This document shows positions 30,650 through 40,746 of a stretch of 64,000 nucleotides of DNA, one piece after another; position 1 is the stretch's first letter, and every line of letters begins with the position of its first letter. A program made the translations under genes and the position numbers. Under the pieces are notes generated by a model that worked only from the letters and a program-made list of their open reading frames with translations, was not told the DNA's origin and did no database searches. This DNA is from Vallicoccus soli (GTDB taxonomy: Bacteria > Actinomycetota > Actinomycetes > Motilibacterales > Motilibacteraceae): contig NZ_QZEZ01000003.1 of assembly GCF_003594885.1 (NCBI RefSeq), positions 124,001 through 188,000 on the forward strand, given 5' to 3'.

Positions 30650-31582
30650 TCAGAGCAGGCCCTCGGCCTCGAGGAACTCCTGCGCCACCTGCTCGGCCGG
30701 CTGCTTGTCGACCTGGACCTTGGCCAGCTCGGTGGTGAGCTTCTCCGTGGTCAGCGCCGCGGACAGCCCGTTGAGCGCCTCCTCGACCTCGGGGGTCACC
30801 TTGTCCGAGCTGATGACGGGGACGACGTTCTCGGCGAGGAACAGGTTCTCCGGGTCCTCGAGGGTGACGAAGCCGTTGGTCTCGATCGACGAGTCGGTCG
30901 AGAAGATGTTGGCCACGTCCACCTCGCCGTCCTTGAGCGCGCCGACGGTCAGCGGGCCGCCGACGTCGAGCGGGCGGAACTGGCCGAAGGTCACGCCGTA
31001 CACCTCCTCCAGGCCGACGAGGCCCTGGCGGCGGGTGCGGAACTCGGGCCCCGCGCCGACGACGAGGTCCCCGGCGACCGGCGCGAGGTCGGCGATGGTC
31101 TCCAGGCCGTACCGCTCCGCGGTCTCCGCGGTCACCGAGAGGGTGTCCTTGTCCTCGGCCTCGGACTGCTCGAGGAGCGTCAGCCCCTCCGGCAGCGCCT
31201 CCTGCAGCTCCCGGTAGACGCTCTCGGAGTCCGTCGCCTCGACGTCGCCCTCGGCGAAGTAGGTGAGCAGCGCGCCGTTGTACTCGGGGATGAGGTCGAT
31301 GGACCCGTCCTGCAGCGCGGGGATGTAGACCTCCCGCGCGCCGATGTTGAGCTCCTTCTCGACGGTGACGCCGGCGGCCTCGAGCACGCCGGCGTACATC
31401 TCGGCGAGGAGGACGTTCTCGGGGAAGTTCGCCGAGCCGACGGTGATGGTGCCGGCGGCGGACGTCCCGCCGTCGGTGGTGCCGCTGCCGCCCTGCAGGG
31501 CGTCGTCGGAGTCGCCGCACGCGCTGAGCGCGAGGGCGGAGGCGGCGAGGGCGGCGAGGACGCCCCGGCGGGTGAGGTTCAT
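30650..31582 (-). CDS. Glycine betaine/choline-type ABC transporter substrate-binding lipoprotein
   Basis: A 310-residue lipoprotein: MNLTRRGVLAALAASALALS signal and lipobox LSAC with Cys at ~22. The mature part has ITVGSANFPENVLLAEMYAGVLEAAG, LQDGSIDLIPEYNGALLTYF and VDVANIFSTDSSIETNGFVTLEDPE, typical of OpuAC/OsmF/ProX-type periplasmic binding domains for quaternary ammonium compounds. It is the last gene of a four-gene operon (ATPase, permease, permease, binding protein) and its ATG overlaps the stop of the permease (ATGA). Confidence 0.92.
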   Translation of the reverse strand: MNLTRRGVLAALAASALALSACGDSDDALQGGSGTTDGGTSAAGTITVGSANFPENVLLAEMYAGVLEAAGVTVEKELNIGAREVYIPALQDGSIDLIPEYNGALLTYFAEGDVEATDSESVYRELQEALPEGLTLLEQSEAEDKDTLSVTAETAERYGLETIADLAPVAGDLVVGAGPEFRTRRQGLVGLEEVYGVTFGQFRPLDVGGPLTVGALKDGEVDVANIFSTDSSIETNGFVTLEDPENLFLAENVVPVISSDKVTPEVEEALNGLSAALTTEKLTTELAKVQVDKQPAEQVAQEFLEAEGLL

Positions 31583-32289
31583 GCGGTCGCCTTCCGTGGA
31601 CGGGGTCGCGCGGCGGCCGCTCGGCCGCTCACGCCGGGGGACACGACGGCGCGCTGGACGCCGGCGAGGAGGAGGTCGAGCAGGATCGCGAGGGCCGCGA
31701 CGAGGACCGCGCCCGCGACCATCTGCGGGTAGTCCTGCACGGCGAGGCCGTCGACGAGGAAGCGGCCGAAGCCGCCGAGGGCGACGTACGCCGCGACGGT
31801 GGCGGTGGACACCACCTGGAGGGTGGCGGCGCGCAGACCGCCCATGATGAGGGGCAGCGCCATGGGCACCTCGACGCCCAGCAGCACCTGGCGCTCGGTC
31901 ATGCCCTGCCCGCGCGCGGCGTCCACCGCCGCGCGGTCGACGGCGCGCACCCCGGCGTAGGTGCCGGTGAGCAGCGGGGGCACGGCCAGCACGACGAGCG
32001 CGACGACGACCGGGGTGAGCCCCAGCCCGACGAGGGTGACGACGAGCGTCAGCAGGCCCAGCGTCGGCAGCGAGCGGCCCGCGTTGCCGGCGTTGATCGC
32101 CAGGAACGCGAACCGGCCGGTGTGCCCGATCCACAGGCCCAGCGGGACGGCGACGAGCGCGCCGAGCCCGAGCGCGATGCCGGTGTACTGCAGGTGCTCG
32201 ACCAGCCGGTTCGGCACGTCGTACGGGTCGTCGAGGCTCCAGTTGGCCCCGTCGGCGAGGAAGGCGACGACGTCGCCGGCGAGGCTCAC
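31579..32289 (-). CDS. Osmoprotectant ABC transporter permease
   Basis: A 236-residue binding-protein-dependent permease with five or six helices. RAVDRAAVDAARGQGMTERQVLLGVEVPMALPLIMGG is the EAA loop that docks on the ATPase. VEHLQYTGIALGLGALVAVPLGLWIGH is the N-terminal helix pair of OpuCB/OpuCD-like proteins. The GTG at 32289 is preferred because it overlaps the previous stop (GTGA) and starts VSLAGDVV; an upstream in-frame alternative would read into the other permease gene. Confidence 0.92.
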   Translation of the reverse strand: MSLAGDVVAFLADGANWSLDDPYDVPNRLVEHLQYTGIALGLGALVAVPLGLWIGHTGRFAFLAINAGNAGRSLPTLGLLTLVVTLVGLGLTPVVVALVVLAVPPLLTGTYAGVRAVDRAAVDAARGQGMTERQVLLGVEVPMALPLIMGGLRAATLQVVSTATVAAYVALGGFGRFLVDGLAVQDYPQMVAGAVLVAALAILLDLLLAGVQRAVVSPGVSGRAAAARPRPRKATA

Positions 32290-32942
32290 CGCGCCTCCCC
32301 CGCGCGCACCCACGGGGTGAGCGCGCGCTGCGCGAGGACGATCGCGGTGTCGAGCAGGAGGGCCAGCGCCACCGAGAGCACGATGCCCACGACGATCGGC
32401 GGGGTGTAGTCGAGCTGGAAGCCCGAGGTGAAGAGCTCGCCGAGGCCGCCGACCCCGAGCAGCGCGCCGACGCTGACGAGCGACACGTTGGACACCGTCG
32501 CCACGCGCAGCCCGGCCAGCACGACGGGCAGCGCGACCGGCAGCTCCACCTGCAGCAGCCGCCTGCCCCGCCGGTAGCCGACCGCGGTGGCCGCGGCGGT
32601 GACCGCGGGGGGCACGCTGCCCAGCCCGTCCACGACGGTGCGCACGAGCAGCGCGAACGTGTAGACGCTGAGCGCGACGACGATGTTGACCGGGTCGAGG
32701 ATCCGGGTGCCGAGGATGCCCGGCAGCACGACGAAGAGCGCCAGCGAGGGCACGGCGTAGAGCACGCTCGTCACGCCGAGCAGCGGCGGGCGGAGCAGGC
32801 GGTAGCGGTGCGCCAGCGCCCCCACGGGCACGGCGAGCAGCAGCCCGACGACGACCGGGAGCAGCGCGAGCTCGAGGTGCTCGCGCAGCGCCGCGAGCAC
32901 GGCGTCCTCGTTCTGCCGGAGGTAGTCCGCGAGCCCGCTCAC
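32286..32942 (-). CDS. Osmoprotectant ABC transporter permease
   Basis: A 218-residue permease, paralogous to the next gene: LREHLELALLPVVVGLLLAVPVGAL, SVLYAVPSLALFVVLPGILG, and the EAA loop TAAATAVGYRRGRRLLQVELPVALPVVLAG, then GVGGLGELFTSG. The two permeases would form a heterodimer. Translation is coupled to both neighbours by GTGA overlaps. Confidence 0.92.
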   Translation of the reverse strand: MSGLADYLRQNEDAVLAALREHLELALLPVVVGLLLAVPVGALAHRYRLLRPPLLGVTSVLYAVPSLALFVVLPGILGTRILDPVNIVVALSVYTFALLVRTVVDGLGSVPPAVTAAATAVGYRRGRRLLQVELPVALPVVLAGLRVATVSNVSLVSVGALLGVGGLGELFTSGFQLDYTPPIVVGIVLSVALALLLDTAIVLAQRALTPWVRAGEAR

Positions 32943-33904
32943 GCGCGGGCCGCCGCGTGCCGCTCGCGCAGGTGCCGCGCGATGGCCTCGTGGCTGACGC
33001 AGCCGTCCGGGCGCCCGTCGGGGCCGAGCCGCACGGCGCAGCCGTCGCGCGCGCTGATCGCCAGGTCGAGCACCTGGCGCAGCGGGTCGCCGCGGCGGAA
33101 GCCGCCCTCGGGCGGGACCGGGCCGTCGTACGGCTCCACGGGCAGGTCGCCGGCGTCGACGAACGACAGCCCGCGGAACCCGCGGTCGCGCCCGACGAAG
33201 TCGGCCACGAAGGCGTCGGCGGGGCTCTCCAGCAGCCGCTGCGGCGTGTCGACCTGCGCCAGGTGCCCGCCCTCGCGGAACACCGCGACGAGGTCGCCGA
33301 GCACGACGGCCTCGTCGATGTCGTGGGTGACGAAGACGATGGTCTTGCCGAGCTCGCCCTGCAGCCGCAGCAGCTCCTGCTGCAGCTGGCCCCGCACGAC
33401 GGGGTCGACGGCGCTGAACGGCTCGTCCATGAGCAGCACCGGCGGGTCGGCGGCCAGCGCGCGGGCCACGCCCACCCGCTGCTGCTGGCCCCCGGAGAGC
33501 TGCACGGGGTAGCGGTCGGCGTAGGCGCCCGGCAGCCCGACCCGCTCGAGCACCTCGAGGGCGCGCCGGCGCGCGTCGCGGCGGCTGCGGCCGAGCAGGC
33601 GCGGCACGGTGGCGACGTTGTCCACGACGGTGCGGTGCGGGAAGAGACCGGCCTGCTGGATGACGTAGCCGATGCCGAGGCGCAGCCTCGCGGGGTCCTG
33701 GGCCATGACGTCGCGCCCGTCGACGAGCACGCGCCCGGCGGTCGGCTCGACCATGCGGTTGACCATGCGCAGCGAGGTCGTCTTGCCGCAGCCGGACGGC
33801 CCGACGAGGACGGTGACGCGGCCGGCGGGGACCTCGAGGTCGAGCGCGTCGACGGCGGTGGTGCCGTCGGGGTAGCGCTTGGTGGCGGACTCGAAGCGGA
33901 TCAC
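32939..33904 (-). CDS. Osmoprotectant ABC transporter ATP-binding protein
   Basis: A 321-residue ATPase. Walker [11 protein letters not shown]-loop [11 protein letters not shown], signature [10 protein letters not shown], Walker [12 protein letters not shown] and H-loop VTHDIDEA are all intact. The last ~75 residues resemble a shortened CBS-like regulatory tail ([22 protein letters not shown]), as in OpuCA/OsmV, where CBS domains sense ionic strength. The GTG at 33904 is preceded by GGAGGGACGGGAGG. Some 140 bp of leader with a possible TAGGGT -10 region lies between this start and the HAL-like gene upstream. Confidence 0.92.
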
Positions 33905-34045
33905 CCTCCCGTCCCTCCGCGCGGCGAGGACAGGAAGCACGCGGGCAGCCTCATCGGCGGGCCCTCCTTCTGGAGCCGGGACGTGTCGCGCAACCCTACG
34001 CAGCGGTCCTGACAGGGTGCGCGGCGGCGCGCGGTGACGAGCGCC

Positions 34046-35551
34046 TCAGCGGCGGGCGGCCCCGGCGCCGGCGGGACCCGTCGGCAGCCCCTCCCGCAGG
34101 GCGGCGCGCAGCTCCTCGACGTCGGCGCCGAAGGGCCGGTCGCCGAGGCCCGCGGGGACCCGCAGGTCCACCGCCCGCAGCAGCGGCGCCACCCCGGCCG
34201 GCGGCGGGCGGCGCGCGAGCAGCCAGGCCCGGTGCACGGCGAGCAGCTCGCAGGCCAGCACCTCGCGCAGCGCCTCGAGCGCCAGCCGCGCCTGCTCGGC
34301 GGCCTCCCAGGCGAACGACTGGACGTCCTCCTGCCCGCCCGAGGTCTCCACGGGGCCGAGCGCCGCGGGCAGGGCGAGGCGCCGGGCGGCGTGGGCGGCC
34401 GCGACCGCCCGCTTGTGCACCGCGACGAGGCCGCACTCCGGGCCCGGGCGCTCGGTGAGCTGGCGCGGCAGGCCGGTCACCTCCTCGTCGAGCAGGCGGT
34501 GCAGCCGCGCCACCGACACCTCGGCGGCGTGCACGAGGGCCGCCACGAGCGCGTCGAGGTGCCCGGCGAGGTCGACGCCGTGGAAGCCGGCCGTGCCGAC
34601 GAGGCCCCCGTCGAGGTGGGCGGGGCTGTCCGTGACCCCGTCGAGCGCCCGGTCGACGGCGCCCTCCAGCGCCCCGGCCGCGCGCAGGGCGTGCGCCGCC
34701 ACCGCACCGGCGACGCGGAAGGAGACCGGCGCCTGCACCGAGCGGGGCGCGGGCTCGGGGCCGGCGAGGTCCCGCAGGTGCTCCAGCACGTCCGCCAGCA
34801 GGTCGTCGCCGCGCGCGGCGAGCGGGTGGTACGGGTCGCGCGGCGCCCGGACGACGGCGATACCGGCGGCGGCGACCGCGAGGGCGTGCTGCAGGAGCGT
34901 GCGCGCCTCGTGGGCGCGCAGGAGCGCGAGCGCCGTCGCGCCGGGCACCCCGGCGAGCAGGGCGATGCCCTCCTTGGGCCCCACTCCCGCGCGGCCGAGG
35001 CCGAGGGCGCCGAGCACCGGCGCGGCGAGGCGCACGGTGCGGTCCCCCGTCCCGCGGTCGAGGACCGCGCCGAGCCCCACGAGGACCTGGAAGGCGTGGG
35101 CCAGCGGGACGATCTCGCCGGCGGAGCCGGAGCCGTGGCGCGGCACGGCGGGCGCGACGTCGTGCTCGAGCAGCCCCGCGAGGCGCGCGCAGAGCCCGGG
35201 CGACACGGCGGCGTCGCCGGAGAGGAAGGTGCGCAGGCGCACGGCGACCAGCGCGCGCACCTCGGCGCGGTCGAGCCACGGCGGCCCACCGGCCGCGCGC
35301 CCCACGAGCAGCCGGCCCTGGTGCTCGGCCTCCTCCTCGGCGCTGAGCCGCACGCCGCTCTGCGCGCCCATCCCCGTGCTGACCCCGTAGACGGGGCGCC
35401 CCCGCGCGAGGATCGCGAGGACCTCGGCGCGCCGCTGCGCGAGCCCGTCGAGCAAGCGCTCGCCGAGCACCGGCACCCGCCCGTCCAGCGCGACCGAGAG
35501 CAGCGCCTCGCGGTCGAGGTCCTCGGGGTCGTCGACGGCCAGCGGGCGCAC
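34046..35551 (-). CDS. Histidine/aromatic ammonia-lyase homologue with altered MIO tripeptide
   Basis: A 501-residue member of the HAL/PAL family. Conserved parts are VYGVSTGMGAQ (active-site Tyr loop), PRHGSGSAGEIVPLAHAFQ (MIO loop), GPKEGIALLAGVPG, RDPYHPLAARG and SGGQEDVQSFAWEAAE. In active enzymes the MIO electrophile forms from Ala-Ser-Gly; here residues 143-145 read Ser-Ala-Gly (codons 35117-35125), so the reactive central Ser is Ala. The NGT segment is also changed to AGV. It may therefore be inactive, use another chemistry or another cofactor. The neighbours, an osmoprotectant importer and PTS genes, do not indicate a substrate. The GTG start is the first in frame before the conserved region. 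Confidence 0.85.
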   Translation of the reverse strand: MRPLAVDDPEDLDREALLSVALDGRVPVLGERLLDGLAQRRAEVLAILARGRPVYGVSTGMGAQSGVRLSAEEEAEHQGRLLVGRAAGGPPWLDRAEVRALVAVRLRTFLSGDAAVSPGLCARLAGLLEHDVAPAVPRHGSGSAGEIVPLAHAFQVLVGLGAVLDRGTGDRTVRLAAPVLGALGLGRAGVGPKEGIALLAGVPGATALALLRAHEARTLLQHALAVAAAGIAVVRAPRDPYHPLAARGDDLLADVLEHLRDLAGPEPAPRSVQAPVSFRVAGAVAAHALRAAGALEGAVDRALDGVTDSPAHLDGGLVGTAGFHGVDLAGHLDALVAALVHAAEVSVARLHRLLDEEVTGLPRQLTERPGPECGLVAVHKRAVAAAHAARRLALPAALGPVETSGGQEDVQSFAWEAAEQARLALEALREVLACELLAVHRAWLLARRPPPAGVAPLLRAVDLRVPAGLGDRPFGADVEELRAALREGLPTGPAGAGAARR

Positions 35552-35607: not shown

Positions 35608-36069
35608 TCAGCCGCCCCAGGAGAAGAGCACGTCCCCCGCGGCGACCTCGCGGCCCGCGCCGTCCGCGGGCACCGCGCCCGGCGGGGTGTCGAGGACGAC
35701 GACCGGGCACGTGAGGGCGTACCCGGCCTCCCGGGCCACCTGGGCGCGCTGGCGCACCACCGGCTGCCCGGCCACCACGTCGTCGCCCTCGGCGACGAGC
35801 AGGTCGAAGCCCTCGCCCTTGAGCCGCACGGTGTCCAGCCCGAGGTGCACGAGCACGCCGGTGCCCGACGGGGCCATGACGACGTACGCGTGCGGGTGCA
35901 GCTTGACGACCCGGCCCGCCACGGGGGCCACCGCCTCCACGACGCCGTCGACCGGCGCGGGCTCGACCGCGAGCCCGGCGCCGACCATCTCGCCGGCGAA
36001 CACGGGGTCCGCGACGTCGGCGAGGGCGAGGACCCTCCCGGCGACGGGCGCGAGGACCTCGAGGCTCAC
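35608..36069 (-). CDS. PTS glucose-type EIIA component
   Basis: A 153-residue EIIA-Glc-like protein. Phosphorylation-site His is in VLVHLGLDTVRLKGEGF, and the upstream His is in KLHPHAYVVMAPSG. It receives phosphate from HPr and passes it to EIIB. It starts at a GTG overlapping the EIIB stop (GTGA). It is divergent from the GntR-IIC-nagA-SIS operon, so IIA, IIB and IIC are three separate polypeptides. Confidence 0.92.
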   Translation of the reverse strand: MSLEVLAPVAGRVLALADVADPVFAGEMVGAGLAVEPAPVDGVVEAVAPVAGRVVKLHPHAYVVMAPSGTGVLVHLGLDTVRLKGEGFDLLVAEGDDVVAGQPVVRQRAQVAREAGYALTCPVVVLDTPPGAVPADGAGREVAAGDVLFSWGG

Positions 36070-36296
36070 AGGAGGTCCTGGATGTCCTCGGCGAGCGAGT
36101 CGGCCTCGGGGCCGACGACGACCTGCACCATCGTCCCCTGGGCCATGACGCCGTGGGCGCCGGCGGCCTTGAGGGCCGCCTGGTCGACCTTGGACGGGTC
36201 GTTGACCTCGGTGCGCAGCCGGGTGATGCAGCCCTCGACCTCGGCGATGTTGTCGGCCCCGCCGAGCCCCGCGACGATCTGCTCCGCCTTGCCCAT
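36066..36296 (-). CDS. PTS EIIB component (glucose/N-acetylglucosamine type)
   Basis: A 76-residue EIIB domain with the phosphocysteine in VEGCITRLRTEV (Cys ~23) and a C-terminal VQVVVGPEADSLAEDI strand-helix. The ATG has a GAGGAGG site 6 nt upstream. It is the first gene of the minus-strand IIB-IIA pair and is transcribed from the promoter and operator region between 36343 and 36421. Confidence 0.93.
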   Translation of the reverse strand: MGKAEQIVAGLGGADNIAEVEGCITRLRTEVNDPSKVDQAALKAAGAHGVMAQGTMVQVVVGPEADSLAEDIQDLL

Positions 36297-36342
36297 CGAC
36301 GTCCTCCTCGGTGCTCGGGCCGACCGGCGCCGGCCCGGGTGG

Positions 36343-36371
36343 TTGACACGCAGGGTGTCGGGCGCCACAGT
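36343..36371 (+). promoter_or_regulatory. Sigma-70-type promoter for the gntR-PTS-nagA operon
   Basis: TTGACA at 36343-36348 and CACAGT at 36366-36371 with a 17-bp spacer, directed toward the GntR gene. The -35 is perfect; the -10 matches three of six. Confidence 0.5.
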
Positions 36372-36378
36372 GGCGCCG

Positions 36379-36392
36379 CTGGTCATGACCGG
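36379..36392. promoter_or_regulatory. DasR/GntR-type operator palindrome
   Basis: CTGGTCATGACCGG contains the perfect palindrome GGTCATGACC (36381-36390). It resembles the DasR-responsive element of actinobacteria (TGGTCTAGACCA core). It lies at the expected transcription start of the minus-strand EIIB promoter and just downstream of the plus-strand -10, so one bound dimer could repress both directions. Confidence 0.6.
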
Positions 36393-36421
36393 ACAGTACC
36401 GGCGGCCAGGACCACCGACAA
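36393..36421 (-). promoter_or_regulatory. Sigma-70-type promoter for the EIIB-EIIA genes
   Basis: On the minus strand TTGTCG (36416-36421) and TACTGT (36393-36398) are separated by exactly 17 bp. The predicted start near 36386 falls inside the operator palindrome. Confidence 0.55.
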
Positions 36422-36462
36422 GACCCCGCCGACGCCCCCGAGGCACCGAGGGAGGTGCGCCG

Positions 36463-37202
36463 TTGATCAGCCAGGGCCCGGTCCCGAAGCACGAGCAGCT
36501 GCGCCTCCTCCTGCTGCGCGAGTGCACCGAGCGGCTGCGCCCCGGCGACGCCCTGCCCTCGGAGCGCCAGCTGTGCGAGGAGCACGGCGTCAGCCGCATC
36601 ACCGTGCGCGAGGCGGTGGGCCAGCTCGTCGCCGAGGGGGTCCTCGTCCGCGTGCGCGGCAAGGGCACCTTCGTCGCCGAGCGCCGGGTCCAGAGCCGCC
36701 TGCACCTCGCCTCGTTCACCCAGGACATGCGCCGGCGCGGGCACGAGCCGCGCACGGCCGTCCTCGGCCTCTCCGAGGTCGCACCGCCCGGGCACGTCCG
36801 GGCGGCGCTGCGCCTGCGCCGCCAGGACAGCGCTGTCTGGGTGCGTCGGCTCCGCACGGCCGACGGCGAGCCGATGGCCCTCGAGGACAGCTGGTACGTC
36901 CCCGCGCTCGTCCCCGGCCTCACGCGCGAGGACGCCGAGGGCTCGCTCTACGCCCTCTTCGCCGACCGGTACGGGCTCGTCATCGACAGCGCCGAGCAGA
37001 CGGTCACCGCCGTCACCGCCGGGCCCGACGACGCGCCGCTCCTCGGGGTGCCGCTCGGCGCCCCCCTCCTGCTCTTCGACCGCGTCTCCTGCGCGGCCGG
37101 GCGGCCCGTCGAGGTGACCTCCTCGTGGTACCGCGCCGACCGCTACTCCGTCTCCATGTCCCTGGACCGCACGTCCCCCGAACGCCCCACGGAAGGACAG
37201 CC

Positions 37203-37206
<4 letters not shown>
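36463..37206 (+). CDS. GntR/HutC-type (DasR/NagR-like) transcriptional regulator
   Basis: A 247-residue repressor. The winged helix ALPSERQLCEEHGVSRITVREAV and VRVRGKGTFVAERR cover ~25-80; the rest is a UTRA effector domain (LHLASFTQDMRRRGHEPRT, SWYVPALVPG, SVSMSLDRT). DasR/NagR-type proteins bind phosphorylated amino sugars and regulate N-acetylglucosamine uptake. The TTG at 36463 is chosen because GGAGG lies 7 nt upstream; there is no ATG/GTG at that point. The stop overlaps the EIIC ATG. It probably controls both divergent units through the palindrome at 36379. Confidence 0.88.
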
Positions 37207-38449
<1,243 letters not shown>

Positions 38450-38453
<4 letters not shown>

Positions 38454-39703
38454 CGGAGGGCCCCGCGCTCACGCTGGAGGACGTCACGCTCGTCGACGCG
38501 GTCGGCGAGCGGACGTCCCCCGGGTGGGTACGGCTGCGCGGCGGCCTCGTCGAGGAGGTCGGCACCGGCCGGGACCCGCACCCGTCGACCCGGCGGGTCC
38601 CGCTCGCCGGCCACCGCCTGGCCCCGGGCTTCGTCGACCAGCACGTGCACGGGGGCGACGGCGCCGAGGTGAACGTGGCCGACCCGGCCGACCTGCCCGC
38701 CGCCCTGGCGCGCATCACCGCGTTCCACGCGCGGCACGGGACGACCGGGCTGCTGGCGACCACCGTGTCCGACACCCACGAGCGGCTCACCGCGCTCGTC
38801 CGCGGCATCTCGGCGGCCCGGGAGGACGGCGGGCGCCCCTCGGGCGCCCGCGTCCTGGGCGCGCACCTGGAGGGGCCGTACCTCTCCCCCGCCCGGTGCG
38901 GCGCCCAGGACCCGGCCGTGCTGCGCCCCGCCGACCCCGCCGAGCTCGAGGAGCTCCTCGAGCCCGGCGCGGTCCGGCTGGTGACGCTGGCGCCGGAGCT
39001 GCCGGGGGCCGAGAAGGCCGTGCGCCGCCTCGTCGAGGCCGGGGTCGTCGCCAGCCTCGGGCACACCGACGCGGACCACGCGACGGCGGGCGAGGCGTTC
39101 GGCTGGGGCATGGCCTCGGTCACCCACCTCTTCAACGCCATGCCGGGGCTGCACCACCGCCGCCCCGGCCCCGTCGCGGCGGCGCTGGAGCGCCCGGACG
39201 TCACCGTGGAGCTCGTCGCCGACGGGGTGCACGTGCACCCGTCGGTGCTGCGGCTGGCCTTCGCCGCGGCGCCGGGCCGGGTCGCCCTCGTCACCGACGC
39301 GATGGCGGCCGCGGGCCTGCCCGACGGCGACTACGCGCTCGGCGGGCTCCGGGTCCGCCGGGAGGGCCGGCGGGTGGTGCTCGTCGGCGAGGACGGCGCG
39401 CCGGGCGCCATCGCCGGCAGCGTCCTCACCATGCGCGACGCGGTCGCCTGCGCGGTCGGGGCGGGGGTCCCGGTCGCCGACGCGCTCGCGGCCGCGTCGG
39501 CGACGCCCGCCCGGCTGCTCGGCCTGCCGCACGCGGGCCGCGTCGCACCGGGCGCGCCCGCGGACCTCGTCGTCCTCGACGACGCCCTCGAGGTGCGCCT
39601 CACCCTCGTCGGCGGGCACCCCGTGCACGACCCGGGCGGGCTCCTCGCCGCCACGACCACCGGACCGACCGGCACCGACCCCAGCGGGAGCGACGACCGA
39701 TGA
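38450..39703 (+). CDS. nagA: N-acetylglucosamine-6-phosphate deacetylase
   Basis: A 417-residue amidohydrolase-fold enzyme that converts GlcNAc-6-P to GlcN-6-P. Metal and substrate residues are visible: PGFVDQHVHGGDG, HLEGPYLSP (metal Glu), LGHTDADHATA, VTHLFNAMPGLHHRRPG and VTDAMAAAG (catalytic Asp). The GTG start overlaps the EIIC stop (GTGA) and its own stop overlaps the next ATG. The context places it directly after import of phosphorylated GlcNAc. Confidence 0.95.
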
Positions 39704-40746
39704 CGACGACCCAGATGGCGCGCGAGATCGCCGAGCAGCCGGAGGCGGTCGCCCGTACGCTCGACGCCCTCCTGCCCCTCGTGCCCGAGCTCGCGGCCCT
39801 CGCCCGGCCCCGCCGGCGCGTCCTGCTCGCGGGCCGGGGCACCTCGGACAACGCGGCGGTCTACGGCCGCTACGTCTGCGAGGCCCTGGCCGGCGTCCCG
39901 GCGGCGCTCGCCGCCCCCAGCGTCGCCACGCACTACGGCGCGCGGCTCGACCTCTCCGACACGCTCGTCGTGTCGCTCTCGCAGTCGGGCAGCACCGGCG
40001 AGATCGTCGAGACGCAGCGGTGGGCGCGCGACTGCGGCGCCGCGACGCTCGCGGTCACCAACACCGCCGGCAGCCCGCTCACCGAGGAGGCCGACCTGGC
40101 CTTCGTCACCGAGGCCGGTCCGGAGCGCGCGGTGCCGGCGACGAAGACGTTCACCACCGCCCTCGTCGCCGTCGGCCTGCTGCTGCCCGCGCTCACCGGC
40201 CGCGAGCCGGAGGGGCTGCGGGCGCTGCCCGACGCCGTCGCGGAGGCGGTCGGCCGGGGCGGGGCCGCCGAGCGCGCCGCGTCGGTCCTCGCCGCCCGCC
40301 GCGGCGGGACGGTGGTCACCGGCCGGGGCCTCACCTTCCCCGTCGCGCTGGAGACCGGCCTCAAGCTCGAGGAGACGTGCCTGCGACCGGTGCGCGGGCT
40401 CTCGTACGCGGACCTGCAGCACGGCCCGCGCGCGGTGCTGGACGGGACGACCGCGGTCGTCGTCGTGGCCCCGACCGAGGGGCCGGTGCTGCCCGACCTC
40501 ACGGCCTTCACGGCCTCGCTCCCGGCCACGGGGGCCGCGGTCGTCGGCCTCGGGGGCGACGAGGCCCTCGGGGCGCACTGCGACCCCTGGGTGCGCGGCC
40601 CCGTGCTCGGCGAGGCGCTCTCGGCGGTGACGACCGCGGTGCTCGGCCAGCTCGTCGCGGAGCGGCTCGCCGCCGAGCTCGGCCTCGACCCGGACGCCCC
40701 CCGCGGGCTGCGCAAGGTCACGCAGACCGAGGCGCGCACGGCCTGA
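39700..40746 (+). CDS. SIS-domain glucosamine-6-phosphate deaminase/isomerase-like protein
   Basis: A 348-residue protein with two SIS domains and no glutaminase domain. [65 protein letters not shown] and [22 protein letters not shown] are the sugar-phosphate-binding segments, as in GlmS C-terminal halves, AgaS and NagB-II. NagB-II-type enzymes deaminate glucosamine-6-P to fructose-6-P, the step that must follow NagA, and no classical NagB is seen here. The ATG overlaps the nagA stop (ATGA). I assign the reaction by context. Confidence 0.85.

Follow-up and report, generated by a model that had tools for sequence, protein, structure and literature searches.

The stretch of Vallicoccus soli DNA analysed here (64,000 nucleotides, referred to as the window) encodes a full-length member of the aromatic amino acid lyase family in which the Ala-Ser-Gly triad that forms MIO reads Ser-Ala-Gly. 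Comparison with its relatives indicates that MIO loss is family-wide and old in the actinobacterial clade to which it belongs (LYA) and in a proteobacterial sister group (AAD). The likeliest reading, to which we give an even chance, is that LYA works as a lyase without MIO and that its substrate is an amino-acid derivative brought in by the importer; any single named substrate is much less probable.

The Lyase Gene and Its Active-Site Loop

Translation of the lyase frame gave no internal stop and a loop reading PAVPRHGSGSAGEIVPLAH, with codon 143 beginning at 35125 and codon 145 finishing at 35117 on the minus strand (Table 1). The first-pass annotation had described Ser-Ala-Gly at residues 143-145, a change of the Asn-Gly-Thr block to Ala-Gly-Val, retention of the Tyr loop (GVSTG) and QED region, and a frame open over 501 residues, all of which the translation bears out. 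The protein matches PF00221 (Lyase_aromatic) at 274 bits against a cut-off of 27.3 across residues 14-452, which amounts to the full length, and scores 217 bits with the HutH equivalog TIGR01225, below the cut-off of 539. Just ahead of the triad its loop is one residue shorter than that of HutH (GS-GSAG vs GSLGCSG). No other PF00221 gene was found in the window's genome, which is 98.6% complete.

Table 1. Positions of the lyase, its altered triad and the adjacent importer genes in the window.
Feature	Position	Strand	Basis or remarks
LYA, MIO-less aromatic-amino-acid-lyase family protein	34046..35551	(-)	501 aa, GTG start; PF00221, AlphaFold2, structure matches
Ser143-Ala144-Gly145 replacing MIO-forming Ala-Ser-Gly	35117..35125	(-)	Translation and homologue alignment
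ABC transporter ATPase, betaine/proline/choline (ProV) type	32939..33940	(-)	TIGR01186 297 bits, PF00005; start may be internal Val near 33904
ABC permease 1	32286..32942	(-)	PF00528, ProW/ChoW-like
ABC permease 2	31579..32313	(-)	PF00528, ProW-like 76 bits
Substrate-binding lipoprotein (SBP), OpuAC family	30650..31582	(-)	PF04069 175 bits; best PDB matches Lmo1422 (4z7e), EgtUC

Active-site residues are numbered here as in P. putida HAL, whose Tyr53, His83, Arg283 and Glu414 correspond to Tyr55, Arg85, Arg279 and Glu408 of the window protein. Arg, Ala and Val occupy the positions of HAL His83, Asn195 and Tyr280, the last of these (in VQAPVSFR) removing the second catalytic tyrosine, and HAL Phe329 is retained. 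When the MIO serine of PbPAL was replaced by engineering (S154A), no MIO was formed and hydroamination activity was lost (PMC12535398), and since that variant is unable to make MIO, MIO chemistry is not expected in the window lyase. Judging from its sequence, the protein should not use MIO.

An AlphaFold2 model built with 34 homologues had a mean pLDDT of 91 and a pTM of 0.92, and it matched known structures end to end: SgTAM (3kdy) with Z 42.5, T. acidophilum HAL (7tqr) with 41.6, ergothionase (6s7j) with 41.5 and P. putida HAL (1b8f) with about 40. These scores are too close to choose among SgTAM, HAL and ergothionase.

A Clade Without the MIO Serine

Homologues of the lyase were sought across 84,980 species genomes, which yielded 71 loci. 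Close homologues are rare, occurring in 2 of 394 genomes of the same class besides the window's own; genomes of this class mostly carry only a MIO-type HutH with 30-36% identity to the window lyase. In the tree made without 6s7j, LYA and the nine proteobacterial AAD loci group together (ultrafast bootstrap 100 and SH-aLRT 99 for the joint clade), and LYA alone is recovered with the same support (100/99); another tree gave a similar picture. A single-protein scan of viral contigs with the lyase gave no match.

Among the 57 LYA members usable for residue counts, the MIO serine position holds Ala in 50 and Ser in seven, all seven being SSG sequences from Amycolatopsis; the following Gly is invariant, and the preceding residue varies (Ala, Ser, Thr, Val, Cys or Met). 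The Amycolatopsis sequences (L069-L072, L075, L076 and L101) have Arg83 and Leu280 and are nested within LYA beside a CAG member, so their serine looks regained. AAD sequences read GFAAD or GMAAD at the triad site.

The rest of the active site has changed along with the triad. LYA retains Tyr53, Gln277 (56/57), Arg283 and Glu414 in the 57-member alignment, His83 is replaced by Arg, Asn195 by Ala, Gln, Glu or Gly, and Tyr280 by Val or Leu (Thr in one case). A new Lys380 has been gained (in HKRA), and both it and Arg381 are near-invariant. AAD shares Ser143Ala, His83Arg, an aliphatic residue 280 and Lys380 with LYA but retains Asn195. The residue after HAL Phe329 differs within LYA (GFHG, GFAG, GFDG), so that members of the clade may have unlike pockets and perhaps different substrates.

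Chance does not explain the same change in over 50 genomes of one clade, and the 57 relatives rule out an isolated mutation or sequencing error in the window. Gene decay is likewise ruled out by open frames, dN/dS values of 0.13-0.34 between close LYA pairs and conserved gene order. The earlier suggestion of a non-MIO enzyme is thus well supported by sequence, the only members with Ser at the MIO position being the SSG sequences of one genus; the possibility that homologues would all carry ASG fails, and the view that the change is not random decay gains from the purifying selection, the coordinated active-site changes and the conserved gene order.

Other MIO-less Lineages

MIO-less sequences also occur elsewhere in the family. 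In five loci from Rhizobium, Sinorhizobium, Aureimonas and Agrobacterium plasmids (L114-L117 and L120) the triad is deleted (GSVG-YLTH), and where annotated the genes are mostly labelled histidine ammonia-lyase; that of L116 sits within a hutF-H-I-G-U operon. A Klebsiella pneumoniae plasmid, pMB2930_1, carries an 'aromatic amino acid ammonia-lyase' without the triad (GSVGYLIAT; L123, 4959-6488) between an ABC importer and hutC/hutF/hutU, and homologues of the L117 query with about 40% identity are listed on many Klebsiella plasmids. These six loci resemble LYA in having no MIO triad and an aliphatic residue in place of Tyr280, with several adjoining ABC importers and hut or Ert genes. They differ from it in that the triad is deleted and not substituted, His83 is kept, Lys380 is absent and they fall on separate branches; the rhizobial MIO-deleted 'hutH' genes also keep Asn195, which LYA replaces. 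On an Alisedimentitalea plasmid (L121, 5881-8404) an OCD (ornithine-cyclodeaminase family) gene overlaps a MIO-less lyase (GSIGAADL) with Arg83, Leu280 and the Lys, which lies far from LYA on the tree, although on a long branch with unsure placement.

By its sequence, a second PF00221 paralogue, LYB, is a further MIO-less lineage. It occurs within the actinobacterial loci L037-L100 (e.g., L039, 14048-15526, and L046, 14137-15645, both on the minus strand), with GTAD, GTGD or GTSD replacing ASG, Ser for Asn195 and Phe for Tyr280, and its gene is divergent from that of the ABC ATPase.

Gene Neighbourhood

The genes for the ABC ATPase, two permeases and the OpuAC substrate-binding protein come after the window lyase in the same orientation, and a phosphatidylethanolamine-binding-protein family gene (PF01161; 30046-30582, minus strand) ends the importer run. 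PTS EIIA/EIIB genes (35608-36302) in that same orientation immediately precede the lyase, separated from it by 56 bp, and divergent from these on the plus strand (36350-40746) are genes for a GntR-like regulator, a PTS IIC-like protein, a NagA-like deacetylase and a SIS-domain aminotransferase-like protein. These are apparently amino-sugar genes unrelated to the lyase.

We counted neighbours by tblastn in the 40 actinobacterial loci whose flanks each extend for about 9 kb or more, and checked family identities with Pfam and NCBIfam. OCD was present in 35 of these loci, an ABC component or SBP in 32 (within about 10 kb), LacI in 26, an amidohydrolase (AmH) in 25, a cysteine-dioxygenase-like (CDO-like) gene and LYB in 24 each, RpiR in 23 and HutU in five. 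The usual order is RpiR< OCD> LYA> LacI< AmH> CDO> LYB< ABC> P> P> SBP>, with OCD lying directly upstream of LYA in 46 of 55 actinobacterial loci; no OCD was found in the partial upstream DNA of the two Kineococcus copies (L079 and L096). The OCD protein resembles imine reductases and alanine dehydrogenase. Nocardioides clusters have a true hutH and hutU 2-5 kb from LYA, and a true HutH with CSG or ASG is found in some genomes that also have LYA. The HutU of L046 is a urocanate hydratase (925 bits), scoring 667 with the thiourocanate hydratase model, below its cut-off of 930. In proteobacterial loci OCD, the lyase and HutI (449 bits against a cut-off of 298) form one run, OCD and the lyase overlap by 4 bp, and TauD and PhyH dioxygenase genes precede the pair.

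The window locus retains only the lyase and importer of this neighbourhood. A search of the window's genome for OCD, HutU, AmH and LYB detected none of them, the same-family OCD and AmH queries detecting both in many other loci by tblastn, and its one CDO_I gene is unlinked to the lyase. With no OCD, HutU, AmH or second PF00221 gene there, the product is not obviously used in this genome.

The Importer and Its Binding Protein

Among the best PDB matches of the window SBP is EgtUC, an ergothioneine-binding protein in which Glu375 contacts the imidazole and Arg379 the carboxylate, and which has an aromatic cage of Phe293, Tyr341, Tyr419 and Tyr443 plus Gly244 (PMC9732360). The equivalents of Glu375 and Arg379 are kept in all 22 cluster SBPs. 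The cage is a different matter: Tyr341 is Asp in 20/22, Tyr419 is Phe in 20/22 and Tyr443 is Glu or Gln in 22/22 (in a column that is aligned with less certainty), while Phe293 is replaced by Tyr, Asn339 by Asp and Gly244 by Phe, and neither Thr296 nor Lys242 is retained. These substitutions thus remove half of the trimethylammonium cage and put acidic or polar residues there. The window SBP itself has Tyr, Asp, Phe and Glu at the four cage positions and Phe for Gly244, and so lacks the EgtU-type cage. With half of the cage lost and Glu375 and Arg379 kept, the ligand would be expected to carry a carboxylate and an amine still bearing a proton, and perhaps an imidazole as well.

Proposed Function and Alternative Explanations

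The protein most likely functions as an acid-base lyase that needs no cofactor. Plain loss of ammonia from histidine is implausible without MIO, which implies that the substrate's ring is activated or that its leaving group is a better one. We propose that the adjacent four-gene OpuA-type importer takes up a cationic amino-acid-like compound, and that this substrate is probably of the imidazole type (histidine-derived), a link drawn from the neighbours in other genomes and the two SBP residues. In the lyase, Arg279 (HAL Arg283) would clamp the substrate carboxylate and Tyr55 (HAL Tyr53) would abstract the beta-proton, with the alpha-substituent expelled without MIO. The invariant Arg85, Lys380 and Glu408 may replace the electrophile, handling the leaving group or ring. 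Such a route would be feasible only with a better leaving group than ammonia, or with a ring that acidifies the beta-proton, as in ergothionase. The OCD-family enzyme encoded beside the lyase in most relatives could carry out a coupled step of redox or imine chemistry, and in hosts with hut genes these neighbours suggest a histidine-type product that may join histidine breakdown. What the data show directly is sequence, conservation, phylogeny, fold and gene order, and from these we infer the catalysis, the substrate and the order of steps. Counting against the proposal are the partner genes missing from the window's genome, the serine of the Amycolatopsis members and the variable residue after HAL Phe329. 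Taken across Actinomycetota and Proteobacteria, it is about as probable as not that this OCD-coupled ammonia-lyase-family clade carries out an elimination that needs no MIO, on some substrate that is not ergothioneine, which would be an undescribed activity in a catabolic pathway with its own importer.

It is possible, but unlikely, that the protein acts just as ergothionase does, as a betaine trimethylamine-lyase converting ergothioneine or hercynine to thiourocanate or urocanate and trimethylamine. Ergothionase is the sole characterised MIO-less member of the fold that we found and matches the model over its full length (tied with HAL and TAM), but the window lyase is nearer in sequence to MIO-type HAL and TAM (126 and 120 bits) than to 6s7j (79 bits). 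The importer's membership of the quaternary-amine family and the EgtUC match of its SBP both fit this reading, yet the SBP has other residues at two of the four aromatic positions of the cage and lacks Thr296 and Lys242. A thiol-dioxygenase-like CDO gene lies in 24/40 clusters and Tyr280 is aliphatic in the ergothionase-like L120 too; however, LYA groups apart from L120, the Agrobacterium homologue beside ErtD, and no thiohydantoin desulfurase was found in the window's genome. We regard as more doubtful still that a beta-substituent (hydroxyl, thiol or amine) is removed from an alpha-amino acid and that OCD then reduces the imine, as BhcD does after beta-hydroxyaspartate dehydratase. The lyase family is known solely for cleaving or moving alpha- and beta-amines, and OCD was found neither in the window's genome nor beside the Kineococcus copies. 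The attraction of such a beta-elimination lies in OCD being the most constant neighbour in both Actinomycetota and Proteobacteria, often with overlapping stop and start codons, in its preceding the MIO-less homologue of Alisedimentitalea as well, in its likeness to imine reductases and alanine dehydrogenase, and in the TauD/PhyH dioxygenase genes ahead of the proteobacterial pair.

Since MIO, His83, Asn195 and Tyr280 are all replaced, the protein could instead be a non-catalytic pseudoenzyme that, for instance, senses a ligand or pairs as a subunit with another lyase, and MIO-less LYB co-occurs in enough loci to make hetero-oligomers conceivable. We rate this as improbable, as Tyr53, Gln277, Arg283, Glu414 and the new Lys-Arg pair are near-invariant, RpiR and LacI genes already serve regulation, and LYB was not found in the window's genome; on the sequences, an enzyme is favoured by the retention of Tyr53, Arg283 and Glu414, by the metabolic genes nearby and by the importer. 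An ordinary histidine ammonia-lyase altered by a sequencing error or chance mutation would fit the family match and the lack of another PF00221 gene in the genome, but we consider it very remote indeed given Ala in 50/57 relatives, several further active-site changes, a true HutH (CSG/ASG) coexisting in some LYA genomes, and no HutU found in the window's genome.

If the MIO-independent lyase we propose is correct, MIO loss would not be one oddity, that of ergothionase, but would have occurred in several lineages whose active sites were rebuilt, and LYA would offer natural examples of what the ammonia-lyase fold does without its electrophile. It would also open a catabolic pathway comprising an importer, lyase, OCD enzyme, thiol-dioxygenase-like enzyme and amidohydrolase, of a kind that current annotation as histidine ammonia-lyase can hide.

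Comparison with Known Systems

The window lyase shares with HutH (1b8f, 7tqr) the full-length fold (Z 40-42) and Tyr53, Gln277, Arg283, Glu414 and Phe329, and differs from it in having no MIO triad, in His83 to Arg, Asn195 to Ala and Tyr280 to Val, and in the new Lys380, at about 30-35% identity. SgTAM is the closest structure by a small margin, with 28% identity, but is MIO-dependent, unlike LYA. The Ala/Cys-Ser-Gly triad, Asn195, Tyr280 and His83 that mark MIO-dependent HAL, PAL, TAL and TAM are all absent from the window lyase.

The 2019 study of T. denticola ergothionase reportedly identified four essential catalytic residues. That enzyme (6s7j) resembles the window lyase in fold and in being MIO-free, but the 79 bits between them compare with 126 for the best HAL and 120 for TAM. 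Ergothionase frees trimethylamine from ergothioneine (PMC7653990; PMC13405746) and does so without MIO (PMC13405746). No ergothioneine pathway genes were found alongside the LYA clade, and no ergothionase model was among the NCBIfam matches to the window lyase. The best context-supported ergothionase-like sequence among our loci is L120, an Agrobacterium plasmid 'hutH' with the triad deleted whose neighbours are a betaine-type ABC importer and the hydantoin-5-propionate amidohydrolase ErtD (783 bits, above the cut-off of 600); unlike LYA it keeps His83 and Asn195, has no Lys380 and falls on a separate branch of the tree made without 6s7j. A Burkholderia ambifaria plasmid (L124, 3-7476) has ErtD and ErtE beside a hutH, which was ruled out as a possible ergothionase by its intact ASG.

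A simple ergothionase orthologue is not supported, given the 6s7j score, the lack of a desulfurase, the partial loss of the SBP cage and the branch separate from L120; from the sequences, LYA appears to be like ergothionase in being MIO-free. The first-pass annotation had also proposed a new role, which holds insofar as this is a non-MIO subfamily but is only partly new in kind, as ergothionase is already MIO-less (PMC13405746). The window lyase is a PF00221 protein that has, as ergothionase does, the PF00221 fold without MIO, and what is new here is a coherent, separate MIO-less subfamily and not a new kind of system.
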